Position numbers and translations under genes: made by a program
Source: Arenicola marina
Lineage: Eukaryota; Annelida; Polychaeta; Arenicolidae
Direction of reading: 5' to 3'
DNA: 64,000 nucleotides
Assembly: GCA_964019135.1 (NCBI GenBank)
Contig: OZ025264.1
Coordinates: 3,690,827-3,754,826 of the forward strand
Shown here: in pieces, positions 19,450 through 55,555 of the stretch
How the letters are laid out: every line of letters begins with the position of its first letter
Position numbering within the stretch: the stretch's first letter is position 1
Notes under the pieces: generated by a model
What the model saw: only the letters and a program-made list of their open reading frames with translations
Databases searched by the model: none
Told to the model about the DNA's origin: nothing

Positions 19450-19990
19450 AACTATATCACGGACACGATAAGAGACGTAAATGTGTTGTCGGTTATCTGG
19501 GGCTCAAAAAGCTCAACCCTATCAACAATTACCCCACCACTCCAACCGCCCAATATATCCCGGCTCCACCACCCCTCTCCCTCATACACTGCACCCCCCC
19601 CCCCCACGCCACCCCCTCCCCCCCACGCCCCGGCACTATTAACACCTGTTTGCATTAATGAATTTCACACAATTACATGCATACAACGACTAATTTCTTT
19701 TCTTTCTTTCTTGCACGAGCATATAAGCACCGCTTCTGCGCAGTTCGTGATGGAAAATGTAATGTACATGTTTTTTCAACATAAACCTATTATTTTGTTT
19801 AAAAAAATCTTTACACTAGACCACCTTCCTAACTGTTTTCTTCGTTGCGTTTGGTGTATACACCCCTCAGTCACCCCACCCCACTCAAAATCTCCCCTTA
19901 TACCTCCATCCCCTATCCCACCCCGTCACCACACCCCACTCTATACCTCTCTACATACTATCCAACCACCCCGTCAGTCAACCCACCCCA
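19450..19990. other. Transition into the 56-bp satellite
   Basis: C-rich low-complexity DNA (poly-C near 19590-19625), then unique sequence. Degenerate units of the 56-bp array appear from about 19855. Confidence 0.45.
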
Positions 19991-22900: not shown

Positions 22901-25900
22901 CTCTACACCTCCCTATATACTATCATCCACCCTCCCACCTCAATCACCCCACCCCACTCTACACCTCCCTATATAATATCATCCACCCTCCCACCTCAGT
23001 CACCCCACCCCACTCTATACCTCCCTATCTACTATCATCCACCCTCCCACCTCAATCACCCCACCCCACTCTACACCTCCCTATATACTATCATCCACCC
23101 TCCCACCTCAATCACCCCACCCCACTCTACACCTCTCTATATACTATCATCCACCCTCCCACCTCAGTCACCCCACCCCATTCTACACCTCCCTATATAC
23201 TATCATCCACCCTCCCACCTCAGTCACGCCACCCCACTCTACACCTCCCTATATACTATCATCCACCCTCCCACCTCAGTCACCCCACCCTACTCTACAC
23301 CTTCCTATATACTATCATCCACCCTCCCACCTCAATCACCCCACCCCACTCTACACCTCCCTATATACTATCATCCACCCTCCCACCTCAATCACCCCAC
23401 CCCACTCTACACCTCCCTATATACTATCATCCACCCTCCCACCTCAGTCACCCCACCCTACTATACACCTCCCTATATACTATCATCCACCCTCCCACCT
23501 CAATCACCCCACCCCACTCTACACCTCCCTATATAATATCATCCACCCTCCCACCTCAATCACCCCACCCCACTCTACACCTCCCTATCTACTGTCATCC
23601 ACCCTCCCACCTCAGTCACCGCACCCCACTCTACACCTCCCTATGTACTATCATCCACCCTCCCACCTCCATCACCCCACCTGACTCTACACCTCCCTAT
23701 ATACTATCATCCACCCTCCCACCTCAGTCACGCCACCCCACTCTACACCTCCCTATATACTATCATCCACCCTCCCACCTCAGTCACGCCACCCCACTCT
23801 ACACCTCCCTATATACTATCATCCACCCTCCCACCTCAGTCACCCCACCCCACTCTACACCTCCCTATATAATATCATCCACCCTCCCACCTCAATCACC
23901 CCACCCCACTCTACACCTTCCTATATACTATCATCCACCCTCCCACCTCAATCACCCCACCCCACTCTACACCTCCCTATATACTATCATCCACCCTCCC
24001 ACCTCAGTCACCCCACCCCACTCTACACCTCCCTATATACTATCATCCACCCTCCCACCTCAGTCACCCCACCCCACTCTACACCTCCCTATGTACTATC
24101 ATCCACCCTCCCACCTCCATCACCCCACCCCACTCTACACCTCCCTATATACTATCATCCACCTACCCACCTCAGTCACCCCACCCCACTCTACACCTCC
24201 CTATATACTATCATCCACCCTCTCACCTCAGTCACCCCACCCCACTCTACTATCATCCACCCTCCCACCTCAGTCACCCCACCCCACTCTACACCTCCCT
24301 ATATACTATCATCCACCCTCTCACCTCAGTCACCCCACCCCACTCTACACCTCCCTATATACTATCATCCACCCTCCCACCTCAGTCACCCCACCTCACT
24401 CTACACCTCCCTATATACTATCATCCACCCTCCCACCTCAGTCACCCCACCCCACTCTACTATCATCCACCCTCCCACCTCAGTCACCCCACCCCACTCT
24501 ACACCTCCCTATATACTATCATCCACCCTCCCACCTCAGTCACCCCACCCCACTCTACACCTCCCTATATACTATCATCCACCCTCCCACCTCAATCACC
24601 CCACCCCACTCTACACCTCCCTATATACTATCATCCACCCTCCCACCTCAATCACCCCACCCCACTCTACACCTCCCTATATACTATCATCCACCCTCCC
24701 ACCTCAGTCACCCCACCCCACTCTACACCTCCCTATCTACTGTGATGCATCCTCCCACCTCAGTCACGCCACCCTACTCTACACCTCCCTATATACTATC
24801 ATCCACCCTCCCACCTCAATCACCCCACCCCACTCTACACCTCCCTACATACTATCATCCACCCTCCCACCTCAATCACCCCACCCCACTCTACACCTCC
24901 CTATATACTATCATCCACCCTCCCACCTCAATCACCCCACCCCACTCTACATCTCCCTATGTACTATCATCCACCCTCCCACCTCAGTCACGCCACCCCA
25001 CTCTACACCTCCCTATCTACTATCATCCACCCTCCCACCTCAGTCACCCCACCCCACTCTACACCTCCCACTCTACTATCATCCACCCTCCCACCTCAGT
25101 CACCCCACCCCACTCTACACCTCCCTATCTACTATCATCCACCCTCCCACCTCAATCACCCCACCCCACTCTACACCTCCCTATATACTATCATCCACCC
25201 TCCCACCTCAATCACCCTACCCCACTCTACACCTCTCTATATACTATCATCCACCCTCCCACCTCAGTCACCCCACCCCATTCTACACCTCCCTATATAC
25301 TATCATCCACCCTCCCACCTCAGTCACGCCACCCCACTCTACACCTCCCTATATACTATCATCCACCCTCCCACCTCAGTCACCCCACCCTACTCTACAC
25401 CTCCCTATATACTATCATCCACCCTCCCACCTCAATCACCCCAACCCACTCTACACCTCCCTATATACTATCATCCACCCTCCCACCTCAATCACCCCAC
25501 CCCACTCTACACCTCCCTATATACTATCATCCACGTTCCCACCTCAGTCACCCCACCCTACTCTACACCTCCCTATATACTATCATCCACCCTCCCACCT
25601 CAATCACCCCACCCCACTCTACACCTCCCTATATAATATCATCCACCCTCCCACCTCAGTCACCCCACCCCACTCTATACCTCCCTATCTACTATCATCC
25701 ACCCTCCCACCTCAATCACCCCACCCCACTCTACACCTCCCTATATACTATCATCCACCCTCCCACCTCAATCACCCCACCCCACTCTACACCTCTCTAT
25801 ATACTATCATCCACCCTCCCACCTCAGTCACCCCACCCCATTCTACACCTCCCTATATACTATCATCCACCCTCCCACCTCAGTCACGCCACCCCACTCT

Positions 25901-28060
25901 ACACCTCCCTATATACTATCATCCACCCTCCCACCTCAGTCACCCCACCCTACTCTACACCTCCCTATATACTATCATCCACCCTCCCACCTCAATCACC
26001 CCACCCCACTCTACACCTCCCTATATACTATCATCCACCCTCCCACCTCAATCACCCCACCCCACTCTACACCTCCTTATATACTATCATCCACCCTCCC
26101 ACCTCAGTCACCCCACCCTACTATACACCTCCCTATATACTATCATCCACCCTCCCACCTCAATCACCCCACCCCACTCTACACCTCCCTATATAATATC
26201 ATCCACCCTCCCACCTCAATCACCCCACCCCACTCTACACCTCCCTATCTACTATCATCCACCCTCCCACCTCAGTCACCGCACCCCACTCTACACCTCC
26301 CTATGTACTATCATCCACCCTCCCACCTCCATCACCCCACCCCACTCTACACCTCCCTATATACTATCATCCACCCTCCCACCTCAGTCACGCCACCCCA
26401 CTCTACACCTCCCCATATACTATCATCCACCCTCCCACCTCAGTCACGCCACCCCACTCTACACCTCCCTATATACTATCATCCACCCTCCCACCTCAGT
26501 CACCCCACCCCACTCTACACCTTCCTATATAATATCATCCACCCTCCCACCTCAATCACCCCACCCCACTCTACACCTTCCTATATACTATCATCCACCC
26601 TCCCACCTCAATCACCCCACCCCACTCTACACCTCCCTATATACTATCATCCACCCTCCCACCTCAGTCACCCCACCCCACTCTACACCTCCCTATATAC
26701 TATCATCCACCCTCCCACCTCAGTCACCCCACCCCACTCTACACCTCCCTATGTACTATCATCCACCCTCCCACCTCCATCACCCCACCCCACTCTACAC
26801 CTCCCTATATACTATCATCCACCTACCCACCTCAGTCACCCCACCCCACTCTACACCTCCCTATATACTATCATCCACCCTCTCACCTCAGTCACCCCAC
26901 CCCACTCTACTATCATCCACCCTCCCACCTCAGTCACCCCACCCCACTCTACACCTCCCTATATACTATCATCCACCCTCCCACCTCAGTCACCCCACCC
27001 CACTCTACACCTCCCTATATACTATCATCCACCCTCCCACCTCAGTCACCCCACCTCACTCTACACCTCCCTATATACTATCATCCACCCTCCCACCTCA
27101 GTCACCCCACCCCACTCTACTATCATCCACCCTCCCACCTCAGTCACCCCACCCCACTCTACACCTCCCTATATACTATCATCCACCCTCCCACCTCAGT
27201 CACCCCACCCCACTCTACACCTCCCTATATACTATCATCCACCCTCCCACCTCAATCACCCCACCCCACTCTACACCTCCCTATATACTATCATCCACCC
27301 TCCCACCTCAGTCACCCCACCCCACTCTACACCTCCCTATCTACTATCATCCACCCTCCCACCTCAGTCACCCCACCCCACTCTACTATCATCCACCCTC
27401 CCACCTCAGTCACCCCACCCCACTCTACTATCATCCACCCTCCCACCTCAGTCACCCCACCCCACTCTACACCTCCCTATATACTATCATCCACCCTCCC
27501 ACCTCAGTCACCCCACCCCACTCTACACCTCCCTATATACTATCATCCACCCTCCCACCTCAGTCACCCCACCCCACTCTACACCTCCCTATATACTATC
27601 ATCCACCCTCCCACCTCAGTCACCCCACCCCACTCTACACCTCCCTATATACTATCATCCACCCTCCCACCTCAGTCACCCCACCCCACTCTACACCACC
27701 CTATATACTATCATCCACCCTCCCACCTCAGTCACCGCACCCCACTCTACACCCTCCTATATACTATCATCCACCCTCCCACCTCAGTCACCCCACCTCA
27801 CTCTACACCTCCCTATATACTATCATCCACCCTCCCACCTCAGTCACCCCACCCCACTCTACACCTCCCTATCTACTATCATCCACCCTCCCACCTCAGT
27901 CACCCCACCCCACTCTACACCTCTCTATATACTATCATCCACCCTCCCACCTCAGTCACCCCACCTCACTCTACACCTCCCTATATACTATCATCCACCC
28001 TCCCACCTCAGTCACCCCCCCCCCCACTCTACACCTCCCTATATACTATCATCCACTATC
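19990..28060 (+). repeat. 56-bp satellite, about 145 units, ending ~150 bp before SMPD1 copy 1
   Basis: Unit: ctatatactatcatccaccc + tcccacctcagtcaccccac + cccactctacacctcc, period 56 bp (for example 20708 and 20764), with shortened units lacking the acacctccctatatac part. Higher-order structure: diagnostic units recur at an offset of 2660 bp (22081/24741; 22299/24959; 24091/26751). The period is not a multiple of 3, so long frames read all three phases in turn; their Pro/His/Thr/Ser-rich translations are artefacts. Confidence 0.97.
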
Positions 28061-28209: not shown

Positions 28210-28521
28210 ATGACACTGACCCCTAGAATAGGCGTATTTTACGCACTTTATGTCACTGTCTGCGTGAGTTGTGTCGCTTTGTCTGATGCCTACTCGTACG
28301 GTAACGTCGACGCCGACGTCGACGCCAAGTATGACTGCGCCATGGCAGAGGGGACGAGTCGGATACTGACGCAAGCGGGCCGCCAGGCAGGCGCCATCAT
28401 CACTCAGATCCTGACGGAGTCTACCATCGATGAGGAGACTCGTATGGCCGTGACGGTAGAGACCCTGGACCAACTCCGAGATGTCCCCGCCAACGTGTCC
28501 GAGGGATGCCGCGGGTGTCTG
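28210..28521 (+). CDS. SMPD1: SMPD1 copy 1 exon 1 (signal peptide, start of saposin-B)
   Basis: Starts MTLTPRIG with a hydrophobic signal segment ending near LSDA and closes with NVSEGCRGCL. It ends phase 0 at donor gtcagt (28522), the same sequence and phase as copy 2 exon 1. This is the first of about 100 copies of that donor; use of a later one would lengthen the exon. Confidence 0.87.
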
Positions 28522-31500
28522 GTCAGTACTCTGTCTCCTTACTCCCGATCACTGTGCTGTATAACTGTACTTACTGTGGCCTATGTCCCCGCCAACGTGT
28601 CCGAGAGATGCCGCGGGTGTCTGGTCAGTACTATGTCTCCTTACTCCCGATCACTGTGCTGTATAACTGTACTTACTGTGGCCTATGTCCCCGCCAACGT
28701 GTCCGAGAGATGCCGCGGGTGTCTGGTCAGTACGCTGTCTCCTTACTCCCGATCACTGTGCTGTATAACTGTACTTACTGTGTCCTATGTCCCCGCCAAC
28801 GTGTCCGTGAGATGCCGCGGGTGTCTGGTCAGTACTCTGTCTCCTTACTCCCGATCACTGCTGTATAACTGTACTTACTGTGTCCTATGTCCTCGCCAAC
28901 GTGTCCGAGAGATGCCGCGGGTGTCTGGTCAGTACTCTGTCTCCTTACTCCCGATCACTGTGCTGTATAACTGTACTTACTGTGCCCTATGTCCCCGCCA
29001 ACGTGTCCGAAAGATGCCGCGGGTGTCTGGTCAGTACGCTGTCTCCTTACTCCCGATCACTGTGCTGCATAACTGTACTTACTGTGTCCTATGTCCCCGC
29101 CAACGTGTCCGAGGGATGCCGCGGGTGTCTGGTCAGTACTCTGTCTCCTTACTCCCGATCACTGTGCTGTATAACTGTACTTACTGTGTCCTATGTCCCC
29201 GCCAACGTGTCCGAGGGATGCCGTGGGTGTCTGGTCAGTACTCTGTCTCCTTACTCCCGATCACTGTGCTGTATAACTGTACTTACTGTGTCCTATGTCC
29301 CCGCCAACGTGTCCGAGGGATGCCGCGGGTGTCTGGTCAGTACTCTGTCTCCTTACTCCCGATCACTGTGCTGTATAACTGTACTTACTGTGTCCTATGT
29401 CCCCGCCAACGTGTCCGAGAGATGCCGCGGGTGTCTGGTCAGTACTATGTCTCCTTACTCCCGATCACTGTGCTGTATAACTGTACTTACTGTGCCCTAT
29501 GTCCCCGCCAACGTGTCCGAGAGATGCCGCGGGTGTCTGGTCAGTACGCTGTCTCCTTACTCCCGATCACTGTGCTGTATAACTGTACTTACTGTGTCCT
29601 ATGTCCCCGCCAACGTGTCCGAGAGATGCCGCGGGTGTCTGGTCAGTACGCTGTCTCCTTACTCCCGATCACTGTGCTGTATAACTGTACTTACTGTGTC
29701 CTATGTCCCCGCCAACGTGTCCGAGGGATGCCGTGGGTGTCTGGTCAGTACGCTGTCTCCTTACTCCCGATCACTGTGCTGTATAACTGTACTTACTGTG
29801 TCCTATGTCCCCGCCAACGTGTCCGAGGGATGCCGCGGGTGTCTGGTCAGTACTATGTCTCCTTACTCCCGATCACTGTGCTGTATAACTGTACTTACTG
29901 TGTCCTATGTCCCCGCCAACGTGTCCGAGGGATGCCGTGGGTGTCTGGTCAGTACGCTGTCTCCTTACTCCCGATCACTGTGCTGTATAACTGTACTTAC
30001 TGTGTCCTATGTCCCCGCCAACGTGTCCGAGGGATGCCGTGGGTGTCTGGTCAGTACGCTGTCTCCTTACTCCCGATCACTGTGCTGTATAACTGTACTT
30101 ACTGTGTCCTATGTCCCCGCCAACGTGTCCGAGGGATGCCGCGGGTGTCTGGTCAGTACTCTGTCTCCTTACTCCCGATCACTGTGCTGTATAACTGTAC
30201 TTACTGTGTCCTATGTCCCCGCCAACGTGTCCGAGGGATGCCGTGGGTGTCTGGTCAGTACGCTGTCTCCTTACTCCCGATCACTGTGCTGTATAACTGT
30301 ACTTACTGTGTCCTATGTCCCCGCCAACGTGTCCGAGGGATGCCGCGGGTGTCTGGTCAGTACTCTGTCTCCTTACTCCCGATCACTGTGCTGTATAACT
30401 GTACTTACTGTGTCCTATGTCCCCGCCAACGTGTCCGAGGGATGCCGTGGGTGTCTGGTCAGTACGCTGTCTCCTTACTCCCGATCACTGTGCTGTATAA
30501 CTGTACTTACTGTGTCCTATGTCCCCGCCAACGTGTCCGAGGGATGCCGCGGGTGTCTGGTCAGTACTCTGTCTCCTTACTCCCGATCACTGTGCTGTAT
30601 AACTGTACTTACTGTGTCCTATGTCCCCGCCAACGTGTCCGAGGGATGCCGCGGGTGTCTGGTCAGTACGCTGTCTCCTTACTCCCGATCACTGTGCTGT
30701 ATAACTGTACTTACTGTGTCCTATGTCCCCGCCAACGTGTCCGAGGGATGCCGTGGGTGTCTGGTCAGTACGCTGTCTCCTTACTCCCGATCACTGTGCT
30801 GTATAACTGTACTTACTGTGTCCTATGTCCCCGCCAACGTGTCCGAGGGATGCCGTGGGTGTCTGGTCAGTACGCTGTCTCCTTACTCCCGATCACTGTG
30901 CTGTATAACTGTACTTACTGTGGCCTATGTCCCCGCCAACGTGTCCGAGGGATGCCGCGGGTGTCTGGTCAGTACTCTGTCTCCTTACTCCCGATCACTG
31001 TGCTGTATAACTGTACTTACTGTGTCCTATGTCCCCGCCAACGTGTCCGAGGGATGCCGTGGGTGTCTGGTCAGTACGCTGTCTCCTTACTCCCGATCAC
31101 TGTGCTGTATAACTGTACTTACTGTGTCCTATGTCCCCGCCAACGTGTCCGAGAGATGCCGCGGGTGTCTGGTCAGTACGCTGTCTCCTTACTCCCGATC
31201 ACTGCTGTATAACTGTACCTACTGTGTCCTATGTCCCCGCCAACGTGTCCGAGAGATGCCGCGGGTGTCTGGTCAGTACTCTGTCTCCTTACTCCCGATC
31301 ACTGTGCTGTATAACTGTACTTACTGTGTCCTATGTCCCCGCCAACGTGTCCGTGAGATGCCGCGGGTGTCTGGTCAGTACTCTGTCTCCTTAATCCCGA
31401 TCACTGTGCTGTATAACTGTACTTACTGTGGCCTATGTCCCCGCCAACGTGTCCGAGAGATGCCGCGGGTGTCTGGTCAGTACGCTGTCTCCTTACTCCC

Positions 31501-34500
31501 GATCACTGTGCTGTATAACTGTACTTACTGTGTCCTATGTCCCCGCCAACGTGTCCGAGAGATGCCGTGGGTGTCTGGTCGGTACTCTGTCTCCTTACTC
31601 CCGATCACTGTGCTGTATAACTGTACTTACTGTGTCCTATGTCCCCGCCAACGTGTCCGAGAGATGCCGCGGGTGTCTGGTCAGTACGCTGTCTCCTTAC
31701 TCCCGATCACTGTGCTGTATAACTGTACTTACTGTGTCCTATGTCCCCGCCAACGTGTCCGAGAGATGCCGTGGGTGTCTGGTCAGTACGCTGTCTCCTT
31801 ACTCCCGATCACTGTGCTGTATAACTGTACTTACTGTGTCCTATGTCCCCGCCAACGTGTCCGAGGGATGCCGCGGGTGTCTGGTCAGTACTCTGTCTCC
31901 TTACTCCCGATCACTGCTGTATAACTGTACTTACTGTGTCCTATGTCCCCGCCAACGTGTCCGAGGGATGCCGTGGGTGTCTGGTCAGTACTCTGTCTCC
32001 TTACTCCCGATCACTGTGCTGTATAACTGTACTTACTGTGTCCTATGTCCCCGCCAACGTGTCCGAGAGATGCCGTGGGTGTCTGGTCAGTACGCTGTCT
32101 CCTTACTCCCGATCACTGTGCTGTATAACTGTACTTACTGTGGCCTATGTCCCCGCCAACGTGTCCGAGAGATGCCGCGGGTGTCTGGTCAGTACGCTGT
32201 CTCCTTACTCCCGATCACTGTGCTGTATAACTGTACTTACTGTGTCCTATGTCCCCGCCAACGTGTCCGAGAGATGCCGTGGGTGTCTGGTCGGTACTCT
32301 GTCTCCTTACTCCCGATCACTGTGCTGTATAACTGTACTTACTGTGTCCTATGTCCCCGCCAACGTGTCCGAGAGATGCCGCGGGTGTCTGGTCAGTACG
32401 CTGTCTCCTTACTCCCGATCACTGTGCTGTATAACTGTACTTACTGTGTCCTATGTCCCCGCCAACGTGTCCGAGAGATGCCGTGGGTGTCTGGTCAGTA
32501 CGCTGTCTCCTTACTCCCGATCACTGTGCTGTATAACTGTACTTACTGTGTCCTATGTCCCCGCCAACGTGTCCGAGAGATGCCGCGGGTGTCTGGTCAG
32601 TACGCTGTCTCCTTACTCCCGATCACTGTGCTGTATAACTGTACTTACTGTGTCCTATGTCCCCGCCAACGTGTCCGAGGGATGCCGTGGGTGTCTGGTC
32701 AGTACTCTGTCTCCTTACTCCCGATCACTGTGCTGTATAACTGTACTTACTGTGTCCTATGTCCCCGCCAACGTGTCCGAGGGATGCCGCGGGTGTCTGG
32801 TCAGTACTCTGTCTCCTTACTCCCGATCACTGTGCTGTATAACTGTACTTACTGTGTCCTATGTCCCCGCCAACGTGTCCGAGGGATGCCGCGGGTGTCT
32901 GGTCAGTACTCTGTCTCCTTACTCCCGATCACTGTGCTGTATAACTGTACTTACTGTGTCCTATGTCCCCGCCAACGTGTCCGAGGGATGCCGCGGGTGT
33001 CTGGTCAGTACTCTGTCTCCTTACTCCCGATCACTGTGCTGTATAACTGTACTTACTGTGTCCTATGTCCCCGCCAACGTGTCCGAGGGATGCCGTGGGT
33101 GTCTGGTCAGTACTCTGTCTCCTTACTCCCGATCACTGTGCTGTATAACTGTACTTACTGTGTCCTATGTCCCCGCCAACGTGTCCGAGGGATGCCGCGG
33201 GTGTCTGGTCAGTACTCTGTCTCCTTACTCCCGATCACTGTGCTGTATAACTGTACTTACTGTGTCCTATGTCCCCGCCAACGTGTCCGAGGGATGCCGT
33301 GGGTGTCTGGTCAGTACTCTGTCTCCTTACTCCCGATCACTGTGCTGTATAACTGTACTTACTGTGGCCTATGTCCCCGCCAACGTGTCCGAGAGATGCC
33401 GCGGGTGTCTGGTCAGTACTCTGTCTCCTTACTCCCGATCACTGTGCTGTATAACTGTACTTACTGTGTCCTATGTCCCCGCCAACGTGTCCGAGGGATG
33501 CCGTGGGTGTCTGGTCAGTACTCTGTCTCCTTACTCCCGATCACTGTGCTGTATAACTGTACTTACTGTGTCCTATGTCCCCGCCAACGTGTCCGAGAGA
33601 TGCCGCGGGTGTCTGGTCAGTACTCTGTCTCCTTACTCCCGATCACTGCTGTATAACTGTACTTACTGTGTCCTATGTCCCCGCCAACGTGTCCGAGGGA
33701 TGCCGTGGGTGTCTGGTCAGTACTCTGTCTCCTTACTCCCGATCACTGTGCTGTATAACTGTACTTACTGTGTCCTATGTCCCCGCCAACGTGTCCGAGG
33801 GATGCCGTGGGTGTCTGGTCAGTACTCTGTCTCCTTACTCCCGATCACTGTGCTGTATAACTGTACTTACTGTGTCCTATGTCCCCGCCAACGTGTCCGA
33901 GGGATGCCGTGGGTGTCTGGTCAGTACTCTGTCTCCTTACTCCCGATCACTGTGCTGTATAACTGTACTTACTGTGGCCTATGTCCCCGCCAACGTGTCC
34001 GAGGGATGCCGTGGGTGTCTGGTCAGTACTCTGTCTCCTTACTCCCGATCACTGTGCTGTATAACTGTACTTACTGTGTCCTATGTCCCCGCCAACGTGT
34101 CCGAGGGATGCCGTGGGTGTCTGGTCAGTACGCTGTCTCCTTACTCCCGATCACTGTGCTGTATAACTGTACTTACTGTCTCCTATGTCCCCGCCAACGT
34201 GTCCGTGAGATGCCGCGGGTGTCTGGTCAGTACTCTGTCTCCTTACTCCCGATCACTGTGCTGTATAACTGTACTTACTGTGTCCTATGTCCCCGCCAAC
34301 GTGTCCGAGGGATGCCGCGGGTGTCTGGTCAGTACTCAGTCCCCTTACTCCCGATCACTGTGCTGTATAACTGTACTTACTGTGTCCTATGTCCCCGCCA
34401 ACGTGTCCGAGGGATGCCGCGGGTGTCTGGTCAGTACTATGTCTCCTTACTCCCGATCACTGCTGTATAACTGTACTTACTGTGGCCTATGTCCCCGCCA

Positions 34501-37500
34501 ACGTGTCCGAGAGATGCCGCGGGTGTCTGGTCAGTACTCAGTCCCCTTACTCCCGATCACTGTGCTGTATAACTGTACTTACTGTGTCCTATGTCCCCGC
34601 CAACGTGTCCGAGGGATGCCGCGGGTGTCTGGTCAGTACTATGTCTCCTTACTCCCGATCACTGCTGTATAACTGTACTTACTGTGGCCTATGCCCCCGC
34701 CAACGTGTCCGTGAGATGCCGTGGGTGTCTGGTCAGTACTCTGTCTCCTTACTCCCGATCACTGTGCTGTATAACTGTACTTACTGTGGCCTATGTCCCC
34801 GCCAACGTGTCCGAGGGATGCCGCGGGTGTCTGGTCAGTACTCTGTCTCCTTACTCCCGATCACTGTGCTGTATAACTGTACTTACTGTGTCCTATGTCC
34901 CCGGCAACGTGTCCGAGGGATGCCGCGGGTGTCTGGTCAGTACTCTGTCTCCTTACTCCCGATCACTGTGCTGTATAACTGTACTTACTGTGGCCTATGT
35001 CCCCGCCAACGTGTCCGAGGGATGCCGCGGGTGTCTGGTCAGTACTCTGTCTCCTTAATCCCGATCACTGTGCTGTATAACTGTACTTACTGTGGCCTAT
35101 GTCCCCGCCAACGTGTCCGTGAGATGCCGCGGGTGTCTGGTCAGTACTCTGTCTCCTTACTCCCGACCACTGCTGTATAACTGTACTTACTGTGGCCTAT
35201 GTCCCCGCCAACGTGTCCGAGGGATGCCGCGGGTGTCTGGTCAGTACTCTTGTCTCCTTAATCCCGATCACTGTGCTGTATAACTGTACTTACTGTGTCC
35301 TATGTCCCCGCCAACGTGTCCGAGGGATGCCGTGGGTGTCTGGTCAGTACTCTGTCTCCTTACTCCCGATCACTGTGCTGTATAACTGTACTTACTGTGT
35401 CCTATGTCCCCGCCAACGTGTCCGAGGGATGCCGCGGGTGTCTGGTCAGTACTCTGTCTCCTTACTCCCGATCACTGTGCTGTATAACTGTACTTACTGT
35501 GTCCTATGTCCCCGCCAACGTGTCCGAGGGATGCCGTGGGTGTCTGGTCAGTACTCTGTCTCCTTACTCCCGATCACTGTGCTGTATAACTGTACTTACT
35601 GTGTCCTATGTCCCCGCCAACGTGTCCGAGGGATGCCGCGGGTGTCTGGTCAGTACTCTGTCTCCTTACTCCCGATCACTGTGCTGTATAACTGTACTTA
35701 CTGTGTCCTATGTCCCCGCCAACGTGTCCGTGAGATGCCGCGGGTGTCTGGTCAGTACTCTGTCTCCTTACTCCCGATCACTGTGCTGTATAACTGTACT
35801 TACTGTGTCCTATGTCCCCGCCAACGTGTCCGAGAGATGCCGCGGGTGTCTGGTCAGTACTCTGTCTCCTTACTCCCGATCACTGCTGTATAACTGTACT
35901 TACTGTGTCCTATGTCCCCGCCAACGTGTCCGAGAGATGCCGCGGGTGTCTGGTCAGTACGCTGTCTCCTTACTCCCGATCACTGTGCTGTATAACTGTA
36001 CTTACTGTGTCCTATGTCCCCGCCAACGTGTCCGAGAGATGCCGTGGGTGTCTGGTCAGTACGCTGTCTCCTTACTCCCGATCACTGTGCTGTATAACTG
36101 TACTTACTGTGTCCTATGTCCCCGCCAACGTGTCCGTGAGATGCCGCGGGTGTCTGGTCAGTACTCTGTCTCCTTACTCCCGATCACTGTGCTGTATAAC
36201 TGTACTTACTGTGTCCTATGTCCCCGCCAACGTGTCCGAGAGATGCCGCGGGTGTCTGGTCAGTACGCTGTCTCCTTACTCCCGATCACTGTGCTGTATA
36301 ACTGTACTTACTGTGGCCTATGTCCCCGCCAACGTGTCCGAGGGATGCCGTGGGTGTCTGGTCAGTACGCTGTCTCCTTACTCCCGATCACTGTGCTGTA
36401 TAACTGTACTTACTGTGTCCTATGTCCCCGCCAACGTGTCCGAGGGATGCCGTGGGTGTCTGGTCAGTACTCTGTCTCCTTACTCCCGATCACTGTGCTG
36501 TATAACTGTACTTACTGTGTCCTATGTCCCCGCCAACGTGTCCGAGGGATGCCGCGGGTGTCTGGTCAGTACTCTGTCTCCTTACTCCCGATCACTGTGC
36601 TGTATAACTGTACTTACTGTGTCCTATGTCCCCGCCAACGTGTCCGTGAGATGCCGCGGGTGTCTGGTCAGTACTCTGTCTCCTTACTCCCGATCACTGT
36701 GCTGTATAACTGTACTTACTGTGTCCTATGTCCCCGCCAACGTGTCCGAGAGATGCCGCGGGTGTCTGGTCAGTACTCTGTCTCCTTACTCCCGATCACT
36801 GCTGTATAACTGTACTTACTGTGTCCTATGTCCCCGCCAACGTGTCCGAGAGATGCCGCGGGTGTCTGGTCAGTACGCTGTCTCCTTACTCCCGATCACT
36901 GTGCTGTATAACTGTACTTACTGTGTCCTATGTCCCCGCCAACGTGTCCGAGAGATGCCGTGGGTGTCTGGTCAGTACGCTGTCTCCTTACTCCCGATCA
37001 CTGTGCTGTATAACTGTACTTACTGTGTCCTATGTCCCCGCCAACGTGTCCGTGAGATGCCGCGGGTGTCTGGTCAGTACTCTGTCTCCTTACTCCCGAT
37101 CACTGTGCTGTATAACTGTACTTACTGTGTCCTATGTCCCCGCCAACGTGTCCGAGAGATGCCGCGGGTGTCTGGTCAGTACGCTGTCTCCTTACTCCCG
37201 ATCACTGTGCTGTATAACTGTACTTACTGTGGCCTATGTCCCCGCCAACGTGTCCGAGGGATGCCGTGGGTGTCTGGTCAGTACGCTGTCTCCTTACTCC
37301 CGATCAGTGTGCTGTATAACTGTACTTACTGTGACCTATGTCCCCGCCAACGTGTCCGAGGGATGCCGCGGGTGTCTGGTCAGTACTCTGTCTCCTTACT
37401 CCCGATCACTGTGCTGTATAACTGTACTTACTGTGGCCTATGTCCCCGCCAACGTGTCCGTGAGATGCCGCGGGTGTCTGGTCAGTACTCTGTCTCCTTA

Positions 37501-40500
37501 CTCCCGATCACTGTGCTGTATAACTGTACTTACTGTGTCCTATGTCCCCGCCAACGTGTCCGAGAGATGCCGCGGGTGTCTGGTCAGTACGCTGTCTCCT
37601 TACTCCCGATCACTGTGCTGTATAACTGTACTTACTGTGTCCTATGTCCCCGCCAACGTGTCCGAGGGATGCCGTGGGTGTCTGGTCAGTACTCTGTCTC
37701 CTTACTCCCGATCACTGCTGTATAACTGTACTTACTGTGTCCTATGTCCCCGCCAACGTGTCCGAGAGATGCCGCGGGTGTCTGGTCAGTACGCTGTCTC
37801 CTTACTCCCGATCACTGCTGTATAACTGTACTTACTGTGTCCTATGTCCCCGCCAACGTGTCCGAGAGATGCCGCGGGTGTCTGGTCAGTACGCTGTCTC
37901 CTTACTCCCGATCACTGTGCTGTATAACTGTACTTACTGTGTCCTATGTCCCCGCCAACGTGTCCGAGAGATGCCGTGGGTGTCTGGTCAGTACGCTGTC
38001 TCCTTACTCCCGATCACTGTGCTGTATAACTGTACTTACTGTGTCCTATGTCCCCGCCAACGTGTCCGTGAGATGCCGCGGGTGTCTGGTCAGTACTCTG
38101 TCTCCTTACTCCCGATCACTGTGCTGTATAACTGTACTTACTGTGTCCTATGTCCCCGCCAACGTGTCCGAGAGATGCCGCGGGTGTCTGGTCAGTACGC
38201 TGTCTCCTTACTCCCGATCACTGTGCTGTATAACTGTACTTACTGTGGCCTATGTCCCCGCCAACGTGTCCGAGGGATGCCGTGGGTGTCTGGTCAGTAC
38301 GCTGTCTCCTTACTCCCGATCAGTGTGCTGTATAACTGTACTTACTGTGACCTATGTCCCCGCCAACGTGTCCGAGGGATGCCGCGGGTGTCTGGTCAGT
38401 ACTCTGTCTCCTTACTCCCGATCACTGTGCTGTATAACTGTACTTACTGTGGCCTATGTCCCCGCCAACGTGTCCGTGAGATGCCGCGGGTGTCTGGTCA
38501 GTACTCTGTCTCCTTACTCCCGATCACTGTGCTGTATAACTGTACTTACTGTGTCCTATGTCCCCGCCAACGTGTCCGAGAGATGCCGCGGGTGTCTGGT
38601 CAGTACGCTGTCTCCTTACTCCCGATCACTGTGCTGTATAACTGTACTTACTGTGTCCTATGTCCCCGCCAACGTGTCCGAGGGATGCCGTGGGTGTCTG
38701 GTCAGTACTCTATCTTGACATTCATAATTGTTCATTTTCGCCGCTATAAGTTGTTCATTAAAGGCGAAGACACTTCAGTATTATTACGTACTATGCCTGA
38801 CAGTCCGTTTGTCAGCGCGTATTGATGAGTTATATTGGCATCAATTACAGGGCGGATCGCCGGGGGAAGGTCCCCCCACCCTTTCTTTCTTGAGGAAGAA
38901 ATACCGTTTTTCAATGCAAAATTTGGGCCATCTGATTAGCATGGACCTACCCCCCCCCCCCCCTCACCTCCCGGTCTTCAAATTGGTGGATCGCCCGATC
39001 GCAATTTTGTTCAGCGCCCCCCTTTCCCCTGTGGCAGGTTTGGAGCTCCCACCCGTTTTCAAATTTCTGGATCTGCCCCTGCATTAGGTAGTCATCGGCG
39101 GCCTCCAGGCCTTCATCGACCAGAACCTGACGTATGAGGATGTGGAGCCCCTGGCCGTCAACATCTGCTACCCGGTGGCGCTGGCCGAGGGATGGAGGCC
39201 GAACATCGTGTGCGAGTCGGTCATCAGCAACTTCGGACCCCACGTCGGTGTTTAATGAATAACATTGTGTGTTAGCATGTTACGGATATGTCACTCATTT
39301 TCATACAATACGATAGACTCACACAACTGATTAATACCCATATATATATCTCACTCATTCTCCTACAATACGATAGACTCACACAGCTGATCAATACCCA
39401 TATATATATCTCACTCATTCTCCTACAATACGATAGACTCACACAGCTGATCAATACCCATATATATATCTCACTCATTCTCCTACAATACGATAGACTC
39501 ACACAGCTGATCAATACCCATATATATATCTCACTCATTCTGCTACAATACGATAGACTCACACAACTGATCATTACCCATATATATATCTCACTCATTC
39601 TCATACAATACGATAGACTCACACAACTGATCATTACCCATATATATATCTCACTCATTCTGCTACAATACGATAGACTCACACAACTGATCATTACCCA
39701 TATATATATCTCACTCATTCTCCTACAATACGATAGACTCACACAACTGATCATTACCCATATATATATCTCACTCATTCTCATACAATACGATAGACTC
39801 ACACAACTGATCATTACCCATATATATATCTCACTCATTCTCATACAATACGATAGACTCACACAACTGATCGTTACCCATATATATATCTCACTCATTC
39901 TCCTACAATACGATAGACTCACACAACTGATCATTACCCATATATATATCTCACTCATTCTGCTACAATACGATAGACTCACACAACTGATCATTACCCA
40001 TATATATATCTCACTCATTCTCCTACAACACGATAGACTCACACAACTGATCATTACCCATATATATATTTCGCTCATTCTCCTACAATACGATAGACTC
40101 ACACAACTGATCAATACCCATATATATATCTCACTCATTCTCCTACAATACGATAGACTCACACAACTGATCATTACCCATATAAATATCTCACTCATTC
40201 TCCTACAATACGATAGACTCACACAACTGATCATTACCCATATATATATCTCATTCATTCTGCTACAATACGATAGACTCACACAACTGATCATTACCCA
40301 TATATATATCTCACTCATTCTCCTACAATACGATAGACCCACACAACTGATCATTACCCATATATATATCTCACTCATTCTCCTACAATACGATAGACTC
40401 ACACAACTGATCATTACCCATATATATATCTCACTCATTCTCCTACAATACGATAGACTCACACAACTGATCAATACCCATATATATATCTCACTCATTC

Positions 40501-43500
40501 TCATACAATACGATAAGGTCACACAACTTAATTATCAATATCTTATCTGACACATTATCTTACAATAAAATAACCCTAAACAACTTAATACAATCCAACT
40601 TGATCCAACGAAATGCAATGTTCGTATGATTCGGTTCATTTATTATAGTCACACATACAAGCCTTCTCATGGAAATAAACGAACAAATAAACACTGTATT
40701 CAACCCTTAGGGTTTACAAGTGATTTGAAGGCAACGTGTAAATCGTGGCAACGTATGAAAACAGGCAACCGTTACTACCTAATGGGCTCAGTTAAACCTC
40801 CCTAAATAAATAATCTTTTCGTTTTTATCAGAGCGACAGATACAAACTAAAAACCAGTATTCCATTCCCGATTCAGTATGATCCGGAACTTTTTCCTTTA
40901 TATTCATCACTTCAAAACCTTTATCAGGGTTTGGCTTCAAAATTATCCTTAACTTTCTTGCAAGTCCTACGCGTGGGATGTTGTAAATGTTTAGCGCCCA
41001 TTGCGATATCATTAAACACTATTTATTATGGTAAATGTTTTGCGCCTCAAAAAGAACTGCTATTTATTTCATGTATAGACACCAATTATCTATTGGAATG
41101 CCATGGCACCCTAAGTACACCCGCTCCGTAAAGCTCTTATCATCCATGCCTGCTAATCTGTTCAAGAAACTCAACATATAAATGGACCGTCTGGACTTGA
41201 GAGATAACCATCCCATTTGTCCTTGCACTGCATCAGTCAGAGCACACCGAGACAATAACTCATAACTATATGCAGCATTTGATCTAGCTTGCGATATTTA
41301 CCTAACCCCCAAATCTATGAATATCTATGAAAATCCAGATCAAGGCAGTGCCTGTACTGAAATGTCCTTACAGAGAGCACGTTTATGGGTTGTATCCAAC
41401 TAGGCTGGTCTGATTTATAAATTAAACAGCTGTACTACGTGCTGGGGGCCACTACGTTAGACGCCCAGGGAGTCTGTTGGAAGTGGAACCGCTGCGACTC
41501 GGAGGAGGTGGATCCCCCTGTCGGTGAACTCAGAACCTTCTCCCAGCCCAAAGTCAGCGCATGGAAGGCCCCCACGCGGCAATACGACAGAGCTATACCG
41601 CTAGATGACGCTATAAAAGTGGTACATCTGACTGATATACACGTTGACAAGGATTACTTCACGGCAAGTACCTGCATATCCTCCGATTAAAGCTTACAAA
41701 AAAAAATTAATTTTAGGAAAGCTGTTGATATATATATGTCATTCCTGATTTGTTTATGGCCATGGATTGACAGAGTGACGTGAGCAGATTTTGACACAGT
41801 CGCATGAACAACGATTGGCACGGTGGCGTGACCATTGAGTGATGCGGTGACCCGACGATTCACACAGTACATTACCATAGATGGACTGGACGATATCATC
41901 ATAGATTGGCACAATGAACTGGTCATAGATTGGCACAATGAACTGGTCATAGATTGGCACAATGAACTGGTCATAGATTGGCACAATGAACTGGTCATAG
42001 ATTGGCACAATGAACTGTTCATAGATTCGCACAATGAACTCGTCATAGATTGGCACACTGAACTGGTCATAGATTGGCACAATGAGCCGGTCACAATGTC
42101 GGGACAGTATATTGAATGGGCGACATGACCATAGATTGGCCTATTGCCGTCACCGTAAATGGCCCGGTCACAGATTGACTCGGTGACACCCCCTTTCCTT
42201 CAAAATATGTCAGGGCCACTCCGATTGCTTAGTGGGTTAGAGCGCTCGCATTTAGCGCTGTGGCCATCTGAGAGCCTAACGGCACGTGGATCGATGGTTT
42301 GAGCCCCGCTGTGGCCATGTCTGTGTAGTCGCAAGATAAAGATCCCATGTCCTTCTTCGCAAAGAGTAGGGGGTTACCCCCCGGGGACATGGCTCCACTC
42401 TTCCCTTCCCTCTCTTATTGACGTGATATGAACATTCGTTGTGTATGGTCCAACATATCTATTCCTATTCCTATTGACAGGGAGCTGCCACGGACTGCCA
42501 CCTACCGGTGTGTTGCCACGAAGAATGGAACGGCACTGTAAGTCATAAACTAACACGTATATAAAGCTATTGCATGCTTGTTCGTAAGTGATTTGATTGT
42601 GGCTTAACGCCACCTTAAGCCTGTGCAAGGCTATGTGGTACTTTGTATATATAAAGCGACGAGCTAAAACGAACCAGTGGCTCTATATATATAACGTGTA
42701 CACGGTCACGATGATTTACCAGTGTCTATATAATGATCTTACTGTCGTTATACCATGTTGAAATAGTGATCATATTTAGACCACTGTTCGGCGCCACATA
42801 TTCAAACTATGCATGAGTCCCGGCCAACCCCAATATTCATCCGTTGCAGGGTATAGCCGGAGAGTGGGGTGACTATAAATGTAACGTCCCCCCACGAACC
42901 GTGGAGCTCTACCTGCAATTTATGAACGCCATGGCGCCTGATTATATTATGTACACGGGTAAGTAAGATATAACACTGGCTGGAACACGGTGCATAGTTA
43001 AGGTATAAGACTCGTTAACACTACATACACAGGTACAGGGAGCATAACGCCGATTACATTATGTAGACAGGTAAGGTAGAACACTGGCTGCAGAATGTGA
43101 ATAGAATGCAACTTTTAATTTATGACACAAATAGTCCGATGGAATAAATCATAATTTTTGTCAATTGAGCATTGTTCACAAAAGATTAAATTAAGCCATG
43201 GTAATTTTGTTGGCCAATGATGTTAGTAATTTTTGTTTAAGCGAAATTTTCAAGCTGTATATTAAATAAAAGTAGAGCCAAACAAATGGTCTTCAGCCAT
43301 GCAGCTTCAACTTTGAATAATTCAACTCAATACACTCCATCCACGACCAATCCTGTATGCTGTATTGTATTGTTGTTTTCCAAGTGGAAATAAATTATTC
43401 TCTCTCTCCTCTTATCGCTACCATTACTATGCCCCCACCCCCCCTACACACACACACATGTCCACCCGACCAATCACATGCTAATAAGAAGCCCATTCAA

Positions 43501-46500
43501 TCGCTCAATCTCAGTATTTTCTGAATTTATATCGTTTCCAGGCGACACCCCCCCTCACTTGACTTGGATGGAGACACAACAAGGTCAGCTGAACGCCACG
43601 ATCTACGTGGCTGACGCCATCGGACGCAACATGCCAGGTGTCCCCGCCTTCCCCACGATGGGCAACCACGGTATGTGTACGAAACTAATTACATACGAAC
43701 CTAAAAGTGGATGCGATGCAGTTTGTGCGAAAATGACCTTGCAGTTTTACCAAAACCAAAGGACATCGAATGTTTGGTTCTGTTATGGTCTGTTCCTGAT
43801 ATGATATGTAATGCCTACATTATCGGCCAAAGTTGTTTCATCAGATCGTATTGTGTTATGTATCACGCACACGCATTGAGCCTGATCAGAGCTGTACACA
43901 TATCTTGGCTCCAGATGCCCGTTGTGTAGACCTCGACAAGGACACCGAACCATTGAACATATCTAAGAGGAAAATAGCTTTGTATAATTTATCCGTATCA
44001 ATGAATATGCAAATAAACTGAATTTCAGAGACCTATCCGACCAACCTGTATTACTTACCCAGGCCTGATATACAGGTAAGTTGGCTCGTTGTATGTCTCC
44101 ATGGGATTCACAGCCTAATATCTGGGTGAGTCCTCCCCGGTACATCTCTATGAGATGCTCACCTGAAAACTATGCCAGGTACGTTTATCTTCTCACTATT
44201 CTACTTTCTCGTCTGGAGTCTCGCACTTAAACCAATCCCATTTGAATGTATATCACCAGTCTGCCATAGACCCTTCACTTGCATGATAATGCACAAAGCA
44301 AAAAGCACATGCACATGTGAACTGCCACACTGTCAACTTCTCGTTGGTCTACAAAAGAAATATTCCAAATATTTCGGATATGAGAATAACCGCTTGTAAT
44401 GTTAAGATTAGTGATACGATATTACCATGCAAAAAAAAATCTCAAGAAATGGGGAAAATGTGCAACCAACCTTTCTAATAGATGTGGCTCCATTGAAGAT
44501 ATTTGTCATATGATTTATAACTGTTATTTTACCAAGGAAATTTGGAAGCAAATATCGATTATTCTTAATATGATATATATGCATGACAGAAATAATTGAT
44601 GGTGTTGAAAGCGCCGCTGTGAATTGTGCCATAACCGTAACAGAATTTATCCCATATAAAGACATTGCATGCCCGAGACTGTGCTAACCGTCGAGACGTA
44701 ACTTCCTTGTTATTTTCGCGGAACGAACTAATAACCAATGCCACTCTCACAATTTTTTTAAAAGTGGAACTATATTAGTGACACACTACGCCGTAGATAC
44801 TCAGTTATTTCTTAGGTACGATTTGACTATATCTCTCTTTAGACAACAGTCGCTTAATGAGCGCATTCCTGTGTATCTTTAAATTAATGTGTTTACGAAT
44901 GTATCCCACGATTTGTGAAATACAACAAAAAAATCACGAAACAAACGCATATATTCGGCGCCCAATTATAGAGTAATAGAAAAGTCCTGTGATTACAGAA
45001 ACAGACATGTTGGAATGTAAATTAATTATTGAGAAGCCTCATAAATATTATTGCATTATTTTTAAAAACAAAGTAATCTATAATTTGAAATCGATTACTG
45101 CCGCTGCCGGATTCACGGTTTGAAGTCTTCGTAAAATCATCGAAATTTTATTTCTTTTTTATTTAAACTGGATCAGCTTATGGCAGTCGATGAATAATTA
45201 ACAATACTGGTATTAACATGACACAACCATATATATATATATGAAGTGCTGTTTAACTTGTACCACGATACGTGTCTTGTTATCATTCTAACATATCGTA
45301 TTGCAGCAATTAAACAGAGTTTACTTCGACGTCTTCCAACCTATTGCGGGCTTCGGACCGGAGCAGGAATCCACTATACTGGATGGAGGTTACTTCAGCC
45401 AAAGGCTCCAGCCTGGACTGGTGGTCCTCTCCTATAACAGCAATTACGGGTAGATATTATGCTGACTAAATTATCACGAGAATAACGCTCTATATTAACC
45501 CCATATACACGTATCATAATACATGCTGTTAATAACAAAATTAGTAAAAATTCAGACCGCATTTCATTATGGGCGTGTTCGATTCACCCGAAACCGACTG
45601 GAAACCGAAGCATAAATATGACGTCTGTTGCATTTTCTACCCGCGATTGGACTTTCCGTAAATGAATTGGTATCATTTATGATTAACTACGGTGTATGTG
45701 TTCATTGAACTGACAGTTCCGCGGAACCGAAACCGTCAAACCAGCTCTCTCGACAGTTTCACGGTTTGAAGCAAACCGGTTTCGGTTCTTCTCCTGTCGA
45801 ACAGTTAGTTCGACAAACCGGTTTTGGTTTCATGTAAATTGACCACGCCCTAAGTTTGAATCACGTATAGTTTTTTTTAAACATCAATATATAGCCTACG
45901 CCTAACGCTAACTTCAATATGTATGTCATTATAGGTCCACAGAGAATTGGTATAATTTGCTGAGTGAGGACGGACCGGACTACGCCAGGATGAGACAGCA
46001 CATGGAGGACACTCTGAGTACGGCCAGGGACAGCGGGGACAAGGTACAGGGGTGGACAGATATAGGGAAGGTAGGGGTACAACTTGGTGAGTGAGGACGG
46101 ACCGGACTACGCCAGGATGGGACAACACATGAAGGACACTCTGTCTGGGGTGGGCACATAATCTTACGGTCGGGTGGTTAGAAAGATGACTGTTGGTAGC
46201 AGTGCGAGGTGCGGAAGTGGCAGGGACACCTTGGGAAAGACATGGTACAGGATGGGACCGAAGGGGCGGCAGAACTATGTGCAAAGGGGGTATAGCGTGT
46301 TAACTCACAGATCGATAGAGGGTACAATGATTACTTACACGTACCATTCGCTGAGACTGAAGTGAACGAAAAGCGGCTTGTCGAGCTTTTCCCGCCAAAT
46401 CTAAGCCCAGGCGACATATATATCACAATTTACAGAAAACTTGATTGTTTCATTCTATAAACGCAGAAACCTAATAAACATCGCCGTTTCGGCTGTGATA

Positions 46501-49500
46501 TGGCAATCGTGTATATCCCGGGACACTGCGGAGCTCTGTCGCAGCACAACCGAAGCATCGCGAAGAGCAAAAACTGATGACGTTTGTTAGGGCCCAAAAC
46601 GTCATAGTGACGAAAACGTCAGATCACATGGTCTGAGCCATCTAGGAGCAAATGTACAGTTTCACACTGTGCCTCGATCGCAGTGTCTGTTGACGGGGGC
46701 TATGAATATATGAGGCAGTAACTCTTCAGTTTCAGGTATATTTAAGGGCTTTCATAAATGGTGGAATATCGGTATCGCCCCCCCCCCCTCCCTCCGGGTC
46801 CATCCCTTGGAACCTTCTATTCCAAGAAACCTTAGATTTCCTTATTTTCCTGTGCCTTAATTCGCAAATTTCGGCCTGCAAGAGGTCTCTAATTGTCAAT
46901 CAATCAATCCTTTAGCCCCGAGTGGCCCCGCCCTGTCTCCTTCAAAAACGCCACGCAGGGTTGTGTGAGCGATAACCGGGATGGTTGAAATTAAACTTTA
47001 AACTGTATATTTTATTCTACCAAGGTATGACGTTTTGGTCACTATGACGTTTTGGGTTCTAACAGACGTTTACCACTAAGTTGAAAACCTGTGGTTAATT
47101 GATATCACGGGCAAGGCTAAGAGACTCCATTTGGCAGTCTAGCATGCATGGAAGTAGGTCCACTAGTTAAAGAACGATCTGGAGTGCATTCGCCAAAATA
47201 AAGCTTCCAGTGGTTTATTTGGGGAATGCACGACAGCGAGTTCTTTAACCGTACTTATAAAATTGTTATAACAAGGCATTAAATTTGCGCATGTTTCGAA
47301 ACGGGAAATTGACTATTGTGTCAACTGCACTGCCCGAGTGACACGTGAGCGAGCATTATGGAAACAACGGTTCGTCATTGTGAAGCCCCAGGGGGAAGGG
47401 TAGGGTTGGGAGGACGTGGAGGAAGTAGACGTTTTGGAAGTCTTGTTTTCTAAATCACCGCACAAGGATCAAGTCATTACGTCTAACTTTCCTAAAAACA
47501 TCGCCCCCTGAATAGCGATATCGTGGATAAATAAATAGATCATCCATAAATGTCTTTTGTAATATTTATCCTGCACCATTAAACACATATGTGGCATCTG
47601 CTATATCAATGACATGACATGACAATGTCAAACAGTTCCCCCCTGAAATGTATGCAATCGATAGCTTTCTGATCTAACCCCAGCCCCCTTGGAGCTTAAC
47701 AGTGACTTATGCAGTCCATTGTTTGTCTTGAAATTGTTCTGACAACATCAGCCAGCTCGCCTCCGCTCAGTTCAGCTCGACTCGGCTGATTACACCGTGA
47801 CACTTAGCGGAGTCAGTATTAACAACAACTGTTCATTATCAAGATAATGCACAGTTGTTCCGTTCATTATTAAAATAAAGCACTGTTTTGTCGTTCTTTA
47901 TTTAAATAACGCACACTTACGTTAATAAAACACGGCTACGTCTGTTTTCCGATGCATTCTTCTAGATAATGAACACTTGACAAAGGCGAGACATCACAAC
48001 ACAATTTATGATTCACGGACTGATTCTTATTTGTATTTTGGCCTCTTTAGTTTTGGCGGGAAAGAGCTCGATAAGTAACTTTAAGGGATGTGCATCTACA
48101 GACCTTCATATCGACCTGTGAAATTGCATGTCGCGCCAGTGTCACTACCACGAGGCACACGGGTGCCACCCCCACCCCCCACCCTCAACCTGTGGTTGCC
48201 TTGCAGGTGATCCTTCTGGGGCACCACCCCTCTGGTAGCGGAGGACGCTTCAAGAGCTACAACGCCTTCATCAACGACATCCTGGGCAGATATGGTGACG
48301 TCATCATTCTTCACCTCCAAGGTCACGGTCACACGGATGCCTGGGAAATTGTAATTTTCATATTCATAGTTTCTATTTTTATATGAAAACCTGCACTGAA
48401 CGTTCTGAACATTGCATCATTCTATCATAGAATTGTATTTGTCCATACTTAATTACTTGTATTATATACGGAATTGCATGCGGGGGGTTTGACATTTGTT
48501 TCCTGCATCCTACATTTCTATAGCGTAAAACGTTATGCGTTTTTGTCTAACCATCTGAATCACGAAGCATTTTAACTTTGCCCAAAGACTTCCAATGCTG
48601 AGACTGGAGAGGCCTACAACGTACAAATCTCCAGTCCCTCAGTTACCTCTACCAGCAATATCAACCCGTCGGGTAGGATATTTTATTTACATCCGGATAC
48701 ATTTGAACCCTTGGACATGGACACGTTTTATCTGGACCTGCAGAACGCTACGGGTAAGATCCTTTCTGTTCACTACAGACTATTGAATATAATTTCGTAC
48801 GCCAACGTATTTTGGTATTTGTCAGCGGTAAGCTCCAGTCATTGTTTGCTCCTTGTTATGATCCCCGGAGTAAAATAATGTCCATCTTGTCTGTGTGTAG
48901 TTTATTGCTTAGTCTTCCTTTTTAAAGTACAGTGTTTTCCTCGTTATGGGGCAATATATCAGACGCTGTTCCGGTGTTCCATGCGCCAATGCCCTCTCAT
49001 GCGGAGACCCCCCCCCCCCCACCCCTCTGGATCTATCATAATGGCACCGTATGAACACATGGAGCGGAGAGGGTCTCAATATCATGTATTTTATATACCG
49101 GGGGCATCTCCGCTGGGGGTGGGGGGTGGGGGTCCGCCTGTGACACCCGTACCAGACACCAGGCTACCGGCTGAGATAGACGTCAATGTCTGCACATGGG
49201 GTGCCAAGCCTCCGATGCCTCTTCCAATGAGAAGGGGGGCAATGATTAGTCGCGAGGTTTGGCTGCACATGACATTAAAGCTGTTTGTTTAGCTTTCCTC
49301 GCCAAATCTAAGCCCAGGCGACATATAGCCTATCACAATTTGCAGAAAACTCGATTGTTTCATTCTATAAATTCAGAAACCTAATAAACATCGACGTTTC
49401 GGCTGTAATATGGCAAATGTGTCCATCCCGGGACATCGCGAAACAAAGCATCGCGAAGCGCAAACACTGATGACGTTTACCACTAAGGTGAAAATCTGTG

Positions 49501-55291: not shown

Positions 55292-55555
55292 ATGAAGTGG
55301 ACCCACGTTGCCGTCGTGATCTTGGCCTGTGTCGCTTCGTCGACGTCGCTTAGCGTCGACAGTCATGAGTGGGAGGAAGGCATGTCTAGGATTTACAGCC
55401 AGGTGGGGGAGCAGTCCCGCTGGCTGTCCGCCTACGTCATCGCGGCTGCCCCGATGGATTCAGACGCAAAGCTGTCTCTTCTGGATAGAGCGTTTGACTG
55501 GATACCCAGCAGTAACGTCACCAGCAACCTGTCGTCAGAATGCCAAGGATGCCTG
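55292..55555 (+). CDS. SMPD1: SMPD1 copy 2 exon 1
   Basis: Signal peptide then EWEEGMSRIYSQVGEQ, ending SSECQGCL, phase 0, donor gtcagt at 55556. There is a single donor here, in contrast to the array in copy 1. Confidence 0.87.

Follow-up and report, generated by a model that had tools for sequence, protein, structure and literature searches.

In amphioxus, minisatellite-like tandem duplications known as mirages lie over exon-intron boundaries, both 5' and 3', and are unstable in length, and regular splicing is reportedly undisturbed by them (PMC3087553, PMC3902484). They are known in Adh3 and in the globin genes BflGb6 and BflGb9, with similar repeats in TnC and PGBD5 (PMC3087553, PMC3902484); their length differs between haplotypes, and somatic instability was reported at Adh3 (PMC3087553). 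In human segmental duplications, tandem repeats at exon-intron boundaries have on average 30-bp units in four copies (PMC2812944). The human IFI6 (6-16) gene has a minisatellite in which two downstream repeat units serve as donors, giving three mRNA species (PMC4526556), and the earthworm metallothionein gene carries intron-1 minisatellites and exon-4 duplications, the latter being absent from the final transcript (PMC12783039). In this study, we analysed a window of 64,000 nucleotides (contig OZ025264.1, positions 3,690,827 to 3,754,826), the whole stretch of DNA considered here, in which a 102-bp tandem array repeats the exon 1 donor junction of an acid sphingomyelinase (ASM, SMPD1-like) gene, called gene 1. 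The array is ordinary in kind and extreme in size, and it is probably a very large minisatellite of the mirage type, which arose by tandem amplification at the DNA level and would be tolerated since splicing takes the exon-adjacent copy.

The array is a real feature of the sequence (Table 1). Tandem Repeats Finder (TRF) assigned to it 97% matches and a score of 19040, and the bounds of 28470-38710 given in the first-pass annotation were correct to about 11 bases. As in a mirage, the tandem duplication comprises an exon-intron boundary, each unit being composed of the last 41 nt of exon 1 (first copy at 28481-28521), the 5' splice site and some 60 nt of the intron that follows; the exon part comes first in the array, which closes on half a unit. 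Matches to GGGTGTCTG|GTCAGTA with at most 3 mismatches gave 101 junction copies, all of which carry GT; 99 read GTCAGT and the remaining two GTCGGT. The spacing from junction to junction (n = 100) was 102 in 88 cases, 100 in 11 and 103 in one. Intron 1 is 10566 nt long when counted from donor 1 and 387 nt when counted from donor 101. The earlier description of a junction in every unit, and of about 100 near-identical competing donors over 10 kb, therefore agrees with the counts.

The host gene was recognized by searches and by its paralogs. The joined pieces of six gene 1 exons matched acid sphingomyelinase PDB 5i81 in the phosphatase part (phmmer, query residues 203-335, E = 1.4e-18), above the weaker matches to SMPDL3A/3B entries, which upheld the SMPD1-type gene proposed at first. 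Seven single-exon pieces gave no Pfam match above the cut-off, and PDB searches with two single exons of the adjoining paralog, gene 2, returned nothing useful. A saposin-B domain stands before the ASM-type metallophosphatase, as in this gene family; the saposin part was assigned by paralog alignment and also by a cysteine pattern that we take to be typical of the domain. Exon 1 begins at the ATG at 28210 and is homologous to exon 1 of gene 2 (tblastn, 1.2e-8). Exon 2 occurs at 7 places, namely itself, a fragment copy (100%) and five others at 57-67% identity including gene 2. The ends of exons 3-12 are approximate except for 50167; the exon-7 match at 44010-44081 has a stop near its start, and this part is presumably intron. 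Gene 2 and the paralogs C19a and C19b of contig 19 have the exon 1 junction at the same Leu codon, also in phase 0; in the latter two it reads GTGAGT. Because the paralogs share this codon, the position of exon 1 and of its end is well supported, and donor 1 is the junction homologous to theirs.

The consequence of donor choice was read by splicing the message from each donor to exon 2 (39088-39243) and following frame and stops. Donors 1-4 of the 101 give an open in-frame message with +0, +34, +68 and +102 residues, respectively. The other 97 comprise 40 that are in frame but past a stop and 57 that are frame-shifted, and all of them run into a stop before exon 2 ends. No more than 3 of the 100 extra donors are thus able to lengthen the protein. 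The arithmetic of 34 residues per 102-bp unit in the first-pass annotation was right, and its view that donor choice sets the length of the saposin domain holds for donors 1-4 and fails for the other 97. Of about 100 near-identical donors, only the first would give the usual protein, and donor 1 is presumably the site used.

The donors are intact because the whole unit is intact. Of the 102 unit positions, 81 do not vary among the 100 complete units (34 of 41 in the exon part and 47 of 61 in the intron part), and in 37 of the 94 nine-base windows of the unit variants are as few as in the donor window or fewer. The retention of donors is thus shared by much of the unit and does not support a special meaning of the sites. 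Selection on the donors or on the extra copies is unnecessary to explain the retention, and it was dropped as a candidate. Coding evolution of the extra exon pieces was also considered and set aside: the exonic variable sites of this array fall at codon positions 1, 2 and 3 in 1, 4 and 2 cases, without a third-position bias, and a second array showed a mild one.

This second array of the 102-bp unit is located about 0.8 Mb away in the opposite orientation and has 40 junctions (41 pattern matches in all, one of which is 2.8 kb from the array). It belongs to a piece of gene 1, about 11.6 kb long, that starts inside the array, includes exon 2 onward and has one stop in exon 3. Three unique blocks are 99% identical between the fragment and the window. 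The 101 and 40 junctions stand at two places that are duplicates, not alleles, the second one starting inside the array. An allelic haplotig is unlikely, as the outer flanks are another minisatellite, of the GGGGACCAGCAGCCC type, on both sides. The two arrays share no exact run of four or more units in the same order and have 8 unit sequences in common, with 36 distinct units of 100 in the first and 32 of 39 in the second. The first array contains two exact 8-unit repeats at lags of 9 and 10 units, as compared to at most 4 units in 300 shuffles. Turnover of the array seems to outpace change in its flanks. The intronic half of the unit was also considered as a dispersed element and rejected: a 40-base piece of it gave 116 matches at up to 3 mismatches (89 forward, 27 reverse), and all places among the matches listed fall in the two arrays.

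In the proposed mechanism, a tandem duplication of DNA across the exon 1 donor would have started the minisatellite, which would then have grown into the intron by ordinary turnover, i.e., block duplication and unequal exchange. The ancestral single copy, of about 51 nt, was probably the end of the exon with some 10 bases of intron, and ATCTTGACATTC would have followed it immediately. The remaining half of the unit may have entered between two copies of this ancestral piece of about 51 nt, because the array begins with the exon part and ends with half a unit. The spliceosome would take donor 1, which is exon-adjacent and cap-proximal; since the other copies would then leave as intron, the extra donors may be neutral passengers.

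Several points weigh against this explanation. The arguments for the use of donor 1 are homology and open frames, and donors 2-4 likewise yield an open message. Two of the three reading frames of the 102-bp unit are open, and some transcripts could therefore include units. In the second array, codon positions 1, 2 and 3 hold 2, 1 and 4 of the exonic variable sites, a mild third-position excess on few sites. The insertion model for the intronic half is an argument from parsimony. In the exon-3 acceptor arrays of two further paralogs, C3a and C3b, 10 of 40 and 4 of 38 acceptors are open and in frame, so the frame argument is weaker there.

Among the other explanations, an effect on expression survives best, and we still regard it as unlikely. 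About 100 U1-binding donors and a 10.6-kb first intron might damp or time the output of the gene, as a U1 decoy or by unproductive splicing with decay, and the 40 donors in frame with a stop and the 57 frame-shifted ones would indeed give unproductive mRNA. However, the adjoining gene 2 has a single junction, and similar arrays elsewhere, some of which are losing donors (GT in 4 of 8 in C3b), suggest passengers over a conserved device. A functional switch, in which the choice of donor would lengthen the saposin domain in blocks of 34 residues and thereby make the enzyme more varied, is weak as an idea and appears very improbable. Its model on a small scale is IFI6, whose repeat unit is 12 nt and whose minisatellite with multiple splice donors was reportedly described by Turri et al. 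in 1995. The available text on IFI6 gives a precedent in the two downstream units used as donors and the three mRNA species (PMC4526556), and the open frames from donors 1-4 would permit the same here. On the other hand, 97 of the 101 donors are unproductive, only one junction array out of eight, this one, has a period that is a multiple of three, and the lack of a third-position bias in the first array is against it as well. The saposin domain is held by disulphides, and the added block would bring extra cysteines into it. An array collapsed, expanded or made chimeric by assembly is the least probable of all: the exact 8-unit blocks could be mis-joined reads and the copy number is as assembled, but the flanks are continuous, no runs of N occur in the window or in the 59.8 kb around the second array, the 102-bp unit recurs elsewhere in a unit order of its own and between other outer flanks, and the paralogs have arrays of like structure.

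Junction-spanning arrays were not limited to exon 1. Seven more were found, six of them in gene 1 and its paralogs (five on donors, one on acceptors) and one in a P450 gene (Table 1). All eight arrays are built alike: it is the outermost copy that continues into the remainder of the exon, and the extra copies stand toward the intron. The P450 array was read up to a point short of its far end. The periods are 102, about 77, 79, 73, 28, 127, 34 and 40, of which only 102 is divisible by three. As in mirages, many but not all repeats keep the splice signal: at exon 4, where the exon-adjacent copy keeps its site, 4 of 8 copies in C3b and 1 of 8 in C3a read ATGAGT. A 29-bp array upstream of exon 8 in C19a and C19b overlaps a tblastn match and holds no exon sequence, and it was left out of the junction count. 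At 46078-46143 the window has a partial second copy of gene 1 exon 9, which resembles a two-copy start of the C19b exon-9 array. Nine arrays were found around 16 P450 exon matches, which lie in 14 small loci, and one of these arrays spans a donor; in those of its units that were inspected CACAG stands about 20 nt past the donor, giving copies with a donor and an acceptor-like end.

Overlaps between arrays and junctions are expected to some extent because tandem repeats cover much of the sequence: with a period of 20 or more, they make up 54% of the window and, in eight samples of 5 kb from fixed positions, 21%. The test set was four ASM genes without redundancy, C3b and C19a being excluded as near-copies along with periods below 20 and arrays outside the genes. 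Of its 17 arrays, 7 extend over an exon boundary by at least 1 nt on each side, as compared to 2.45 expected by random seeding (P = 0.0045); without the exon 1 array the figures are 6 of 16 and 2.23 (P = 0.014). Stricter rules gave smaller P values but are unfair, given that the intron part of the exon-8 unit amounts to only about 4-5 bases. The data had been seen before the test was designed, the family was found via one such array and the exon ends are approximate, so that the excess of junctions spanned by arrays is suggestive, not settled. In this annelid-type genome, splice junctions, above all donors, might be hot spots for minisatellite birth, the spliceosome having to pick consistently the exon-adjacent (intron-distal) site, for donors and acceptors alike, among 4 to 101 near-identical ones; this we propose tentatively, at somewhat below an even chance.

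Table 1. Features of the window and of related loci; plain positions are those of the window.
Feature	Position	Strand	Unit	Basis or remark
102-bp array, 100.5 copies (TRF)	28481..38715	+	102 bp	TRF; 101 junctions counted
Gene 1 exon 1, signal peptide and first part of saposin-B, ends ...NVSEGCRGCL, phase 0	28210..28521	+		312-nt open frame; homologous to exon 1 of gene 2 and C19a/C19b
Donor 1 GTCAGT, presumed site of use	28522..28527	+		same codon and phase in gene 2, C19a and C19b; open frame only for donors 1-4
Donors 2-101	28624..38706	+		GTCAGT in 99 of all 101
Intron 1 remainder past donor 101, ends TTAG	38707..39087	+		array matches reach 38715
Gene 1 exon 2, VVIGGLQAF...NFGPH, second part of saposin-B, after TTAG	39088..39243	+		57% identical to gene 2 exon 2, 1.8e-19
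Gene 1 exons 3-12, metallophosphatase and C-terminal parts	41427..50167	+		tblastn with gene 2 pieces; comparison with C19a
Stretch with copy at C19:2.882-2.894 Mb	34647..46370	+		copy inverted, in another minisatellite, without exon 1, stop in exon 3
Gene 1 exon 12 donor array, AACAG|GTTAGG	50121..50609	+	about 77 bp	intact 6/6; unit holds exon 12 end
Tandem paralog gene 2 exon 1, junction CTG|GTCAGTA	55292..55555	+		single copy, no array; comparison with gene 1
C3a/C3b exon-3 acceptor array			34 bp	40 and 38 copies
C3a/C3b exon-4 donor array			79 bp	GT 7/8 (C3a), 4/8 (C3b)
C3a exon-6 donor array			73 bp	four sites matched
C19a/C19b exon-8 donor array			28 bp	11 and 37 copies
C19b exon-9 array, most of exon 9 and donor repeated			127 bp	6 donors
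P450 donor array	L060 1081-1979		40 bp	27 sites matched; donor ATG|GTGAGT at exon end

Further repeats were observed in the window. An 8.2-kb minisatellite of 56/112/168 bp at 19865-28056 ends 153 bp upstream of the gene 1 ATG, and its + strand is almost without G (GC skew about -0.94). A 36-bp array at 10851-18765 has about 220 copies and is open over more than 2600 codons on both strands; these open frames probably follow from a unit length divisible by three. A dispersed repeat of about 490 bp at 46580-47069 has terminal inverted repeats of about 42 nt and at least 40 further places at 91-97% identity, resembling a miniature inverted-repeat transposable element. Elsewhere in the genome, kinase frames with in-frame TAG/TAA were seen on the small contigs C443, C465, C504, C330, C652, C497, C684, C609 and C232; they may come from a ciliate-type code, with contamination or a symbiont as the possible source. 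Kinase frames also abound on contig C3 at about 14-57 Mb, where scores of them, mostly stop-free and about 250-380 residues long, look like an expanded family that lacks introns.

Competition between identical splice sites has usually been studied with few copies in constructs, and the models of site choice include first-come, exon-definition and nearest-to-partner ones. Our literature search on competing identical sites found nothing directly to the point. The loci described here are natural competition sets, with 101 donors at gene 1 exon 1, 40 and 38 acceptors at exon 3 of C3a and C3b, and 37 donors at exon 8 of C19b, and the expected outcome in all of them is definite, i.e., the exon-adjacent copy. 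If donor 1 is indeed used, first-come and exon-definition models gain over nearest-to-partner ones; if junctions are hot spots as well, site choice would go by exon definition or first-come capture, not by nearness to the partner. The worth of the array lies in this natural competition of near-identical sites, together with the hint that junctions seed such arrays in the genome.

The host of the array differs from that of the mirages. The mitochondrial contig reads nad3-nad2-cox1-cox2-atp8-cox3-nad6-cob (nad3, nad2-type and cox2 by Pfam, genes other than these and cox1 by reading of the contig), in contrast to the lancelet order; ARAGORN found no tRNA at the mitochondrial locus. A search for GFP, made with amphioxus as the candidate host, gave no match, nor did its control, so that it does not count as evidence against a lancelet. 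The accessible text on annelid mitochondrial genomes gives the clusters cox1-N-cox2, cox3-Q-nad6-cob and nad3-S1-nad2, which fit the order here (PMC2667193). In the literature searched, mostly without subscription papers, there was no report of mirages in annelids, nor of a mirage near 100 copies. If our explanation is true, mirages of the amphioxus type extend to a second phylum, and there are further cases in which to follow the origin of such arrays and the possible birth of new introns.

As compared to the systems described, and as far as the available parts of the papers go, the exon 1 array is closest to the amphioxus mirages, in which many copies retain AG/GT signals and turnover proceeds within the cluster (PMC3087553, PMC3902484). 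It differs in scale, with 101 copies over 10.2 kb as compared to haplotypes of 6 and 3 units in BflGb6 and units of 10-72 bp in Adh3, and in lying in a host with annelid-type mitochondrial order; the mirages of these papers are all from cephalochordates, which is their known range there and no defining trait. With IFI6 it shares a minisatellite that repeats the donor at the end of an exon; there downstream donors are reported to be used, whereas here most would destroy the frame and only donors 2-4 of the 100 extra ones could give variants. The repeats of human segmental duplications likewise indicate that expansion of a boundary minisatellite can alter intron structure (PMC2812944), with 30 bp x 4 there and 102 bp x 100.5 here. 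The earthworm metallothionein gene, in the same phylum by the mitochondrial evidence, also has large arrays in intron 1, but the accessible text describes no splice junction inside the repeat unit (PMC12783039), which in gene 1 is carried by every copy.

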